Shown here piece by piece: positions 1 to 3,507 of a stretch of 64,000 nucleotides of DNA. A model generated the notes under the pieces. That model saw only the letters and a list, made by a program, of their open reading frames with translations, had not been told where the DNA came from and made no database searches. The first letter of the stretch is position 1, and every line of letters begins with the position of its first letter. A program made the position numbers and the translations under genes. Origin of the DNA: Isoetes taiwanensis (lineage: Eukaryota; Streptophyta; Lycopodiopsida; Isoetales; Isoetaceae); assembly GCA_021234155.1 (NCBI GenBank), contig JAJEKV010000075.1, forward strand, positions 5,902,908 through 5,966,907, read 5' to 3'.

Positions 1-552
1 TCATATGGGAAAAAGGTTGATATTTTGGGGCCAAGATAATAATAGCAATGGTTTATTATTTGGACAAAAAGGAATCGTGAGCACTTATAGAAGGAGGCAC
101 TTTTAAAATAAGGGTGGACGCTCAAAAAAGGGAGATACTATTATGGGCAATTGCCTTTTGTCATAAAAAAGGCAATGAAGATATAAGAAGGCATCGACAT
201 GTAATAGGGTTCCATCCATGGAATTGGAGCAATTTCCTTCTTTGTGTGAAGGGTGAATATGTAAAATTGAGGGAGGAGCCTTCTTATCCGATAAGTGGAT
301 TATCAAAAAGGAATCTTTGCTCTAGAGCTACGTGGAGTAGCTAGAGATTGCTTGCCATACCAGTTGTCATAATAACCGCCATAACCTTGTGGACCCGGTT
401 GGGTGGTTAAGCGTGCTTAGCAACGTATTTGTCTGTAACATATGTGATGTAACTGGATCATGTTATACAATAAGATGATGTAACTGGATCATGTTATACA
501 ATAAGATGTTGTTGAGTAGTTTCTGTTTCCCCATAAACATTGAATTGTATCA
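1..552 (+). repeat. 5' LTR (3' portion only)
   Basis: Direct repeat of 2033-2578. It ends in TGTATCA just before the primer-binding site. It contains a 10-bp stem (150-159 with 167-176) and two copies of a 31-bp unit (446-476 and 477-507) beginning GATGTAACTGG. Both features recur in the 3' LTR, so they predate the insertion. Confidence 0.8.
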
Positions 553-554
553 AG

Positions 555-566
555 TGGTATCAGAGC
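555..566 (+). promoter_or_regulatory. Primer-binding site, initiator-Met tRNA
   Basis: TGGTATCAGAGC lies 2 nt downstream of the LTR end. This is the standard complement of the plant initiator-Met tRNA 3' end used for minus-strand priming by many plant LTR elements. Confidence 0.88.
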
Positions 567-787
567 GGAAGTTTGCGATTCTTCTGGGAATCTATGGGCT
601 ATGGAAACATCACCGGGATTTGTATTCCTACTTCTGATTTGAATCAAAGAAGATGGAACTAGTGGTGGTATTATACTCTAAGGCTGCAACACCCCAAGAA
701 TCTTGCAAGTTTGTGCTGCAAGTACAGCTGGGTAGAACTTCGTCAAAAAGTGTGTTGGGGTCAAGAATATGAGTGAGCTGGCGAATC

Positions 788-1029
788 CTTGGAACGTGGA
801 ATCCAAGTAAGGAGGATTTGACGACTACTGCTGCAAGTGAAGTTGGAGCAACAGTAGCAGAGAAAAGAAAAGCTCGGTGCTTTCGTGGAGAATGCTCGAA
901 GCATATAGGAACCGACTTGTTGAGAACGAGTTCGGATTACTGGGGAAAATTCCTATGATCCTTTTGGGGATTATGGAATAAATAAAAGCATCTTGTTTGG
1001 GATTGCAGCGTCAGAACGTGGAGATCTGA
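788..1029 (+). other. Scattered stem-loops exposing GTGGA
   Basis: Three imperfectly spaced stem-loops lie in the element interior. One is 788-807 (CTTGGA paired with TCCAAG, loop containing GTGGA). One is 878-903 (a 7-bp stem with one bulged T; the loop side begins with TGGA). One is 1011-1029 (TCAGA paired with TCTGA, loop containing CGTGGA). They share the loop motif of the array at 1434-1604 but have longer loops. Pairing was read by eye. Confidence 0.45.
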
Positions 1030-1433
1030 GAGACTGACTGGCCGTGGGGGTCATTCATATAAATATTTGACTTTGGGAGCCATATTAACATTGGACCTTA
1101 TTTGCAGGTTTGCTTAGTATTAAGCATGGGGAAGGAACTTTACGGACAAAGCCGTCAGTCAAGAGTATGGACGCTAAGATTTGGATGCGGAATCTCAAAT
1201 TGCTTCCTATGGGACAGACTTATGGGTAAAAGTTCGTAAGTTGATTTTCTTTATGCGGAATAGGGAATAAGAATTTTATTTCTTGTGTGTATCCAAGGTT
1301 GATTTGGTTTGTAATATTTGATTTTTATGTGGAATAAAAATTAAATTATTATGAAAACATGGTGCATTGGATGTAATTTTTTTAGAGAGGGTAATTGTGG
1401 TTATTGCACAATAGGCCTAACAAAATTACATTA

Positions 1434-1604
1434 GTACCGTGGAGGTACAAAATTAGGTAGTACCGTGGAGGTACGAAAAATACTAACGTATCGTGGAGAT
1501 ACAATAGTTTAGTATCGCGGAGATACTATAAAATATTATCGCGGAGATACAAACGATAGTGATGTGCCATGGAGGTACAAGGATATATCGTACTGTGGAA
1601 GTAC
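1434..1604 (+). repeat. Tandem array of covarying 5-5-5 hairpins
   Basis: Seven 15-nt units begin at 1434, 1460, 1488, 1512, 1536, 1564 and 1590, so they are 24-28 nt apart. Each has a 5-nt arm, a 5-nt loop and a 5-nt arm. The loops read GTGGA, GTGGA, GTGGA, GCGGA, GCGGA, ATGGA and GTGGA. The arms change together: GTACC/GGTAC twice, GTATC/GATAC twice, GTACT/AGTAC once, and GTGCC/GGTAC with a G-U pair. The fifth unit keeps four pairs with one mismatch. Units 4 and 7 extend the stem to 7 and 6 bp. Spacers between units are AT-rich and not conserved. Arms that vary while pairing is kept, around a nearly fixed loop, suggest selection on RNA structure. Confidence 0.8.
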
Positions 1605-1698
1605 GCGCATATCCGTAACTATTTCTTGAATTTGCAGAACCTTCAGACGTATGGGGCAATCGCCTTGAGAAGGGATGGGGCCCACTGGAGCGTCTTTG

Positions 1699-1718
1699 GA
1701 AGATCGCGGACGATCTTC
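1699..1718 (+). other. Strong stem-loop with CGGA loop
   Basis: An 8-bp perfect stem, GAAGATCG paired with CGATCTTC, closes a CGGA loop. It lies about 95 nt downstream of the hairpin array and shares its loop core. Confidence 0.55.
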
Positions 1719-1900
1719 TTTAAGAAGGGATGGATTGATACGGTATCATAGCACGGGGGAGTGGTCCACGGCGCCAGGGTTATGGGGGCGTGGCAAAAAT
1801 ATGGCAAAGTATGGCAAACATTTGATGGCAAGGGATAACCATTGGAAATTAGAAGGGCGGATACACATTACTAGGGACCTTTATTATTTGAAATAAAAGG

Positions 1901-2578
1901 TGATCACATTATTGATGGGGTCGTGGAGATAAAGAAGGGACTATTTTACACAAAAGGGCCTTTCTTAATAAAAGGGCGTTGACTAATATTAGGCAAGGGG
2001 GGAAACTTTTGAAAAAGGGCCTACGCTTGTTTTCATATGGGAAAAAGGTTGGATATTTTGGGGGCCAAGATAATAATAGCAATGGTTTATTATTTGGACA
2101 AAAAGGAATCGTGAGCACTTATAGAAGGAGGCACTTTTAAAATAAGGGTGGACGCTCAAAAAAGGGAGATACTATTATGGGCAATTGCCTTTTGTCATAA
2201 AAAAGGCAATGAAGATATAAGAAGGCATCGACATGTAATAGGGGTTCCATCCATGGAATTGGAGCAATTTCCTTTCTTGTGTGAAGGGTGAATATGTAAA
2301 ATTGAGGGAGGAGCCTTCTTATCTGATAAGTGGATTATCAGTCTTTGCTCTAGAGCTACGTGGAGTAGCTAGAGATTGCTTGCCATACCAGTTGTCATTG
2401 CACTGCCATAACCTTGTGGACCCGGTTGGGTGGTTAAGCGTGCTTAGCAACGTATTTGTCTGTAACATATGTGATGTAACTGGATCATGTTATACAATAA
2501 GATGATGTAACTGGATCATGTTATACAATAAGATGTTGTTGAGTAGTTTCTGTTCCCCATAAACGTTGAATTGTATCA
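1901..2578 (+). repeat. 3' LTR
   Basis: Matches the 5' LTR from 2033 to 2578 and ends in the same TGTATCA. The start at 1901 is inferred: TGATCAC there follows a purine run, AAATAAAAGG, that could be the polypurine tract. The true start lies somewhere between 1606 and 2033. Tandem 31-bp units recur at 2473-2503 and 2504-2534. Confidence 0.65.
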
Positions 2579-2633
2579 GTTGCCTAATGGAACCACGATC
2601 CTCTAGCCACGCATAGAAGCACCATGCTCTAGA

Positions 2634-2904
2634 GGGTGTAAATATGGTAATGCTACCCAAAAAGCACCATCCGGACAAGTGCTTTAGGTGCTTTGCTTGA
2701 AGACATTTCTCTTCAATGACCTTAGAGTTGTGACTTAAAAAACAATATATATGATGTAGGAAGGCAAGGAGCGATGATATAGATCTCGTGGAGGAGCGTA
2801 CAAATTGTGGAGGTCAAGTTATGACACATTTTTTCTTAGTCATAGGTGCTTTAGGTGCTATGTGCTTTCGCGCTTTTTTGGGTAGCATTACCATATTTAC
2901 ACCC
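2634..2904. mobile_element. Foldback MITE with about 31-bp terminal inverted repeats
   Basis: The left arm starts GGGTGTAAATATGGTAATGC at 2634. Its reverse complement ends at 2904, perfect over about 31 nt apart from one A indel. Both outer flanks read TAGA (2630-2633 and 2905-2908), a possible target duplication. The interior is about 210 bp, non-coding, with repeated GTGCTTTAGGTGCT. The superfamily cannot be assigned from these ends alone. Confidence 0.75.
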
Positions 2905-2953
2905 TAGAAAGGATTTTCCCATTTCCTGCCTCATCGAACCGGGGAGATGTAAC

Positions 2954-2997
2954 CTGGAGTAATCTCATCGGGTGATTCCATGAGATTACGTCTCCAG
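2954..2997. other. Stem-loop
   Basis: CTGGAG plus TAATCTCAT pairs with ATGAGATTA plus CTCCAG, with a 3-nt bulge (CGT) and an 11-nt loop. It lies in non-coding DNA between the MITE and the next LTR-like region. Function unknown. Confidence 0.4.
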
Positions 2998-2999
2998 AA

Positions 3000-3507
3000 G
3001 GCTACAGCCACGCCATAATGTGATTCAACCTATCTACAAAGTGTGCACAAGAGGGGCGGATGGAATGGACTACCCTAGCCATTGTTCTATGCCAGCCAAT
3101 GCATTTGTCATGATTCCGTCTGTTGTTATCTGGAGGCCCTGACCGTCAGTTGATTCCCTGGAGTTTGAGCCTGGGTTAGATCCCCTTTGAGGTATTGCGT
3201 ATATTATGTTGATGTTGGGATGTTGTTCATATTGATGATGGATGCCACCCTTCACGGTGGTATGATATTCTGTTTTGTATGCTAGATGCTAACTTGTACG
3301 TACGCTTCCGCTATATAGGGTTCCCATAGAAGGCGTGGGACGAATGACACCTCCGTGTCCTTCACCCGGGCACTTGACCATCACAAGTGGTCCGGATAAA
3401 CGCAGGGCCTTCCTGTGGTGATGAGGTCACCATGGGAGGGGAATTTCCCGTGCGTATACGATGGGAGCATCGTATAGGCTCGGGGAGCGTCACAATGGTA
3501 TCAGAAC
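3000..3507 (+). mobile_element. LTR 3' end with primer-binding site, second LTR element
   Basis: TGGTATCAGAAC at 3496-3507 is a variant of the Met-tRNA primer site and directly follows a sequence ending in CACA (3491-3494), as expected at an LTR/internal junction. The presumed LTR end holds several short stem-loops: 3371-3389, 3417-3431 (GGTGA, loop TGAGG, TCACC) and 3455-3476 (9-bp stem, loop GGAG). The LTR start and a matching 3' LTR were not found, so this is probably a fragment. Confidence 0.4.

Follow-up and report, generated by a model that had tools for sequence, protein, structure and literature searches.

Our results suggest that the seven hairpins lying in tandem in a non-coding LTR retrotransposon of Isoetes taiwanensis, together with related hairpins elsewhere in the element, form a multivalent cis-acting signal by which Gag would recognise RNAs for packaging, in a family made up of gag-only and non-coding elements; we give this reading a probability of about 0.55. 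That the hairpins form and that they are under selection is well supported. The contact between Gag and the RNA, the packaging and the mobilisation in trans are steps that we infer from the conservation of the loops.

The element and its hairpin array

Positions 1-2578 of the window (the whole 64,000-nt stretch of DNA that was analysed) hold most of a non-coding LTR retrotransposon that measures about 2,889 nt (~2.9 kb) overall and whose features are collected in Table 1. The target-site duplication, GTTGC, precedes the 5' LTR and directly follows the 3' LTR. Leaving gaps out, the alignment of the LTRs with each other, in pieces of 296 and 555 columns, shows 10 mismatches. The array of seven GTAYC-RYGGA-GRTAC hairpins sits between the PPT and a PBS that we take to be of the initiator tRNA-Met type. 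With ATG, GTG and TTG as start codons, this copy has 13 frames that reach 50 aa, the longest of 76 aa, and no gag was seen among them on inspection. The claim of the earlier note that the element encodes no protein thus holds for the window copy but not for its relatives, which carry gag.

With two LTRs, a PBS, a PPT and a target-site duplication, and being non-coding and shorter than 4 kb, the window copy falls into the TRIM size class, whose range is given as a few hundred bases to 4 kb (PMC6696364). A LARD identity is ruled out by its size (~2.9 kb vs the required >4 kb), and the window copy itself does not fit TR-GAG, as no gag frame was seen in it. Searches of the 1.66 Gb genome assembly returned 1,211 matches to a two-unit array pattern, 535 to the pattern of the LTR hairpin at 2354-2370 (GCTACKYGGAGTAGC) and 437 to the PPT pattern (AAGGGATGGATTGATA), vs 1, 8 and 0, respectively, for the reversed controls. 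Further along the window, a stretch at about 3300-3505 that ends in a TGGTATCAGA site looks by eye like the terminus of a different LTR, unrelated to this element, with its PBS behind it.

Table 1. Coordinates in the window of the features of the retrotransposon copy
Feature	Position	Strand	Basis or remark
5' LTR, most of	1-552	+	direct repeat of 1736-2578; starts 311 nt upstream of the window (L040:190)
LTR hairpin AGCTAC-GTGGA-GTAGCT, 5' LTR copy	326-342	+	within a 57-nt block identical to 2342-2398
PBS TGGTATCAGAGC	555-566	+	two nt after the LTR; same site after the LTR in several relatives
Hairpin H1 TTCTTTAT-GCGGA-ATAGGGAA	1247-1267	+	same stem with TTGGA in other loci
Hairpin H2 ATTTGATTTTTAT-GTGGA-ATAAAAATTAAAT, 13 pairs	1316-1346	+	related hairpins in L064, L073, L079, L080
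Stem-internal-loop-stem module, directly before the array	1370-1432	+	module alignment, arm-swap test
Array unit 1 GTACC-GTGGA-GGTAC	1434-1448	+	sequence, copy alignment
Array unit 2 GTACC-GTGGA-GGTAC	1460-1474	+	sequence, copy alignment
Array unit 3 GTATC-GTGGA-GATAC	1488-1502	+	sequence, copy alignment
Array unit 4 GTATC-GCGGA-GATAC	1512-1526	+	7 pairs with flanks, 1510-1528
Array unit 5 TTATC-GCGGA-GATAC	1536-1550	+	outer pair T-C, four pairs
Array unit 6 GTGCC-ATGGA-GGTAC	1564-1578	+	five pairs, one G-U
Terminal hairpin: unit 7 (1590-1604, GTACT-GTGGA-AGTAC) inside outer stem GGATAT/ATATCC	1581-1614	+	fold, alignment
Hairpin before PPT, GGAAGATCG-CGGA-CGATCTTCT	1698-1719	+	different stem pair in clade B, same place
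Polypurine tract AAGAAGGGATGGA	1722-1734	+	sequence adjoining 3' LTR
3' LTR, TGATAC...GTATCA	1736-2578	+	direct repeat; then GTTGC
LTR hairpin CTGATAA-GTGGA-TTATCAG	2323-2341	+	of 51 loci, only the window copy shows this form
LTR hairpin AGCTAC-GTGGA-GTAGCT, 3' LTR copy	2354-2370	+	535 genome matches of GCTACKYGGAGTAGC, 8 for the reversed control

The array was found as the earlier note had described it, with seven 15-nt units spaced 24-28 nt apart (26, 28, 24, 24, 28 and 26 nt between successive starts); the 5-bp stems also described there are present in six of the seven units, the fifth unit having four pairs. The loops are GTGGA in four units, GCGGA in two and ATGGA in one. Across 59 copies the array counts 3 to 9 units under a permissive rule, and the arrays of clade B, one of the two main gag clades, have two clear units. 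One extra unit each is carried by L021 and L029, and in L074, L075 and L077 the units are followed by an extra GGGAC-GCGGAG-GTTCC-like hairpin, whose loop has six nt and whose stem is unrelated to theirs. The Rfam 15 models gave no match to window positions 1-3000 at E up to 1. None of 200 dinucleotide shuffles folds as well as the sense strand of the array (z -4.19). Note that the reverse strand scores likewise (z -4.78), so the strand is not readable from the folding energy of the array, and that in the MFE fold unit 1 is paired to unit 6, so that the hairpins do not all stand separately.

The alignment of 40 copies (the 39 best genome matches and the window) revealed paired change in the stems. 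At pair 4, unit 1 has C-G in 22 copies and T-A in 18, the mixed state occurring in none, while unit 5 has CG in 28, TA in 7 and TG in 5. Uncompensated arm mutations, which the earlier note had held to count against a selected structure, do occur at the outer pair of unit 5 (T-C in 12 of the 40 copies) and at pair 4 of unit 3 (C-A in 4 of the 40), but never at pair 4 of unit 1. Over 57 distinct units the arms pair in 259 of 285 cells, vs a mean of 240.5 and a maximum of 251 in 5,000 arm permutations (the sequences in this and the other paired-change tests being related, not independent, and uncorrected for phylogeny). The spacers had been called unconserved, which overstates their variability: in the 40 closest copies there are 0.12 shared variants per site in the spacers and 0.13 in the stems, and slower change of the stem sites was not seen among them. 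Since the two rates are alike, the case for the array rests on pairing and loops and not on slow stems.

Paired change was also analysed in the structures next to the array. The module directly before it was found by rule in 34 of the 51 loci that are defined below, and 28 distinct sequences were aligned, identical ones being kept once. The own arms of its outer stem, P1, beat 5,000 of 5,000 arm permutations (20 distinct pairs), and a pair inside the internal loop is A-U in 14 of the 28 sequences and G-C in 11. Stem P2 gave no arm-swap covariation signal (564 of 5,000 permutations), and RNAalifold reached only -1.99 kcal/mol on the module, with one doubly changed pair. The outer stem of the terminal hairpin gave a weak arm-swap signal (88 of 5,000 permutations; 23 distinct pairs, from the loci among the 51 to which its rule applied). 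The PPT-side hairpin contains AAGATCG-CGGA-CGATCTT in five of the six clade A loci in which its place was found, and is GTTGATCG-TGGG-CGATCAAC in 10 of the 16 such loci of clade B, most of the others being close variants. The earlier claim of a selected RNA structure with compensatory change is supported by more than the note had to go on, since both arms change together again and again from one subfamily to the next and the loop is common to unrelated stems of the LTR and the internal region.

The 3' regions of L033-like clade B elements (L081-L096, e.g. L085:960-1375:-) have three successive stem-internal-loop-stem modules before a short array, and the region as a whole folds with z -4.46 (14 of the 16 loci were aligned, omitting L091 and the interrupted L086). 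The clade B module loops are 7 nt long, with the palindromes TTGCAA and CTGCAG, and may be dimerisation hairpins. Note that this is not a retroviral-type dimer initiation hairpin kept family-wide, the TTGCAA module loop being restricted to many clade B and some non-coding loci; the palindrome is absent from the module loop of the window copy and of the clade A rows shown.

One loop on unrelated stems

Outside the array, RYGGA loops are found in 4 of the 12 perfect hairpins of the window copy (six or more pairs, five-nt loop). When this copy was shuffled 4,000 times, preserving dinucleotides, 3,807 shuffles contained none, 188 contained one and 5 contained two, which was the maximum. Elsewhere in the window, none of the 184 RYGGA sites on the plus strand and none of the 255 on the minus strand lies in a stem of at least six pairs; lowering the threshold to five pairs gives 1 and 2 RYGGA hairpins, respectively. 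The commonest hairpin loops in 20 further loci, array included, are GTGGA (51), GCGGA (17), TTGGA (12) and ATGGA (9); these loci came from the first places of the two-unit pattern listing, mostly one per local cluster.

The comparison was extended to 51 loci, comprising 20 found by the array pattern, 20 by gag, 10 by the PPT and the window copy, a choice that does not sample the genome at random. With the array units masked, NNGGA loops are present in 107 of 553 plus-strand hairpins of these loci, 70 of the 107 being RYGGA, vs a mean of 8.45 and a maximum of 19 NNGGA hairpins in 60 shuffles. The 107 hairpins span 32 distinct core stems, which include G-U-rich ones, stems met with once and stems that are variants of others in the set.

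Gag lineages and loop type

Among the 20 pattern-found loci, six have gag frames upstream of the module and array (L062, L064, L065, L066, L076 and L079; several are broken), and the L076 frame matches Retrotrans_gag (9.6e-16) and Ty3_capsid (1.3e-10). The genome search for gag gave 14,873 candidates, of which 131 were scored, many of them having a frame that stays open for about 400 codons; a listed gag place adjoins 13 of the 40 listed array places. In the gag-bearing relatives, the stretch from gag to the LTR showed no pol. In a set of 20 gag frames without stops, chosen for being open, the median dN/dS is 0.117 within clade A (45 pairs), 0.110 within clade B (45 pairs) and 0.069 between A and B (100 pairs), the last at a mean dS of 2.9, which is near saturation. 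By this measure, the gag of the related elements is under purifying selection (dN/dS ~0.11). The two clades are 61% alike in the linker and knuckle and 78% in the part before them. The knuckle has the spacing CX2CX3HX4C in 18 of 20 rows, with differences between A and B; the canonical knuckle is CX2CX4HX4C.

At the place where other members have gag, L071 (C101:537100-539450) has a stretch resembling the starch branching enzyme of plants (rice chain, E 4.6e-77, two stretches), which, as judged from this match, is a captured host gene fragment, and a similar stretch was seen by eye in L067. In L111:1-1501 the gag copy is split by an intervening stretch, in which a 12-bp perfect inverted repeat flanks TCGGA.

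A gag-pol element was sought at PPT-LTR sites without a listed array. There were 12 of these among the matches listed up to contig C255, and 11 were examined (C113:525758 was left out, as a listed gag adjoins it). Ten of the 11 belong to the gag-only and non-coding family, as seen by eye from hairpins, modules or gag frames; L105 is the only one in which none of these was seen by eye. Four stretches between widely spaced LTR hairpins contained one copia-like and one LINE-like insertion (frames by eye), and two had no 140-aa frame. Thus, no gag-pol element with these hairpins was found among the PPT-LTR and LTR-hairpin matches listed.

The loop type differs between the gag clades. Hairpins of at least five pairs with NNGG(A/T) loops, array included, were counted in loci grouped by hand (L106 and L110 were placed in clade B by their 3' region and broken frames). 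RYGGA, TNGGW and other loops number 54, 3 and 1 in clade A (10 loci) and 7, 56 and 8 in clade B (18 loci); the corresponding counts are 79, 13 and 8 in the non-coding A-like loci (nine) and 48, 36 and 10 in the non-coding C-like loci (12). The difference falls on stems that are homologous between the lineages yet mutually unrelated. Thus, the H1 stem TTCTTTAT carries GCGGA or TTGGA depending on the lineage; the last array unit, with its GTACT stem, has RYGGA in one lineage and TTGGA or TTGGT in the other; and the LTR stem CTAC/GTAG has GTGGA or GCGGA in A-like loci and TTGGA in C-like and two clade B loci. Because the difference is common to unrelated stems, one trans-acting reader of the loop would be its simplest cause.

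A third gag lineage, D (L138 and L111), is nearer in gag to A (78-82%) than to B (64-70%), as compared over the longest pieces, and has A-type loops; its array is short and poorly paired. One change common to several hairpins is therefore the simplest history, and the loop difference between the gag clades is probably one evolutionary event, so the link between loop and gag should be read as a correlation of one.

Candidate readers of the loops and known systems

The most likely reader of the loops would be the elements' own Gag, through its CCHC-like knuckle. Gag is the candidate because it differs between the clades, adjoins the array and has a nucleic-acid-binding knuckle. Short stems show a nearly fixed pentaloop many times in the sense RNA. 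They occur as an array downstream of gag, next to the PPT on its 5' side and within the LTR, and the pentaloop is RYGGA in one lineage and TTGGA-type in another. The many loops would bind Gag with avidity, and Gag particles would take up the hairpin-bearing RNAs. Non-coding copies, which keep the signal without gag, would be packaged in trans, with reverse transcription and integration supplied by a pol-bearing element. Protein recruitment read by the gag of a partner element had been among the possibilities raised in the earlier note. Recruitment by gag is now the best explanation, since related elements have gag shortly upstream of the same kind of array and the loop type differs by clade; the partner sought in gag-pol form did not appear among the matches listed. 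We tentatively propose, as a less probable extension, that the hairpins are an RNA address code, in which each Gag lineage would read its own pentaloop, the hairpins of the elements would change to match, and some non-coding families would carry both loops (as in the C-like counts of 48 RYGGA and 36 TNGGW) so that either Gag could package them.

Another possibility, which we consider doubtful, could be that a host RNA-binding protein acting in export, stability, translation or escape from silencing reads the loops, different lineages using different host factors. The 3' untranslated position of the array in gag-bearing copies, its retention in non-coding copies and the mixture of both loop types in some non-coding loci would all suit such a protein. 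However, a loop change common to one lineage within a single genome, where the host proteins are the same, would be better fitted by a reader that the element encodes.

It is unlikely that the hairpins act through RNA-RNA contacts, in dimerisation or long-range folding, even though the 6-nt palindromes in the module loops of clade B and part of the non-coding loci could kiss and the arms of different array units are alike enough for pairing with one another. Neither RYGGA nor TTGGA is self-complementary, and the loss of the palindrome in clade A and the window would leave the array unexplained.

Less likely still is that the units are tandem, partly palindromic sites in DNA for a DNA-binding protein. 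Such sites, of the enhancer or insulator type, are exemplified by the Su(Hw) sites of gypsy, and the tandem spacing of 24-28 nt inside an LTR element would suit them. Against this, the loop is kept while the arms change together between subfamilies, and the NNGGA hairpins outside the array are almost all in sense, the 107 on the plus strand comparing with 5 of 329 on the minus strand. Moreover, single non-Watson-Crick positions are G-U in 24 and A-C in 6 cases at the NNGGA sites, vs 124 and 74 at other loops, a bias that, because of CpG decay, is no more than suggestive. Finally, functionless slippage or local duplication of one ancestral palindrome is very improbable, for it would account for units that resemble one another and vary in number, with the extra ones in L021 and L029, but not for the same loop on unrelated stems nor for the paired stem changes in P1 and the PPT-side hairpin.

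The family shares features with several known systems. TR-GAG elements, non-autonomous LTR retrotransposons of plants, were reportedly described by Chaparro et al. in 2015, and we know of no hairpin code for them. Like these, the gag-bearing relatives have LTRs, PBS, PPT and gag without pol, but the window copy differs in being without gag. Repeated hairpins that offer GGA loops to one protein are present in the CsrB and RsmZ RNAs, which are bacterial, so the likeness is an analogy of layout only. TR-GAG is also named in PMC6696364. Like TRIMs, the window copy is small and non-coding, with LTRs, PBS and PPT, but its family differs by the structured hairpin array in the internal region and by gag in related copies. 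Head-to-tail copies sharing LTRs are listed for Cassandra (PMC7215508); as occurs there, copies of this family are also found head to tail, at regular intervals of about 1.9-2.4 kb, as though successive internal regions had LTRs in common in a tandem row (L100, C966:499300-502700; C64:18427-23109; C235:436735-446269).

The layout of the hairpins, with multiple stem-loops, variable stems and a common loop motif, is that of dispersed packaging signals, which are described for ssRNA viruses and hepatitis B virus as many stem-loops with variable stems and a common short loop motif, -RGAG- in the case of HBV (PMC6281560, PMC7612645). Such a signal is by definition bound at its loop motif by the capsid or Gag protein and required in assembly, a role that is a prediction for the hairpins described here; the family also differs in being an LTR retrotransposon with a tandem array and a loop type that goes with the gag clade. 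In retroviral psi and DIS hairpins, G-rich or palindromic exposed loops have been proposed for Gag binding or dimerisation (PMC4588261); here, in contrast, the hairpins are mostly 3' of gag and in the LTR, and are repeated many times. In the literature surveyed, which covered titles, abstract openings and few subscription papers, no such hairpins were found for an LTR retrotransposon, which does not prove novelty.

To our knowledge, how the RNAs of plant LTR retrotransposons are chosen for packaging is poorly known, above all for the abundant non-coding ones. If our reading is true, the hairpins would provide a concrete recognition code that can be put to the test, would give non-coding copies a means of borrowing a capsid, and would extend the dispersed packaging-signal model to LTR retrotransposons.
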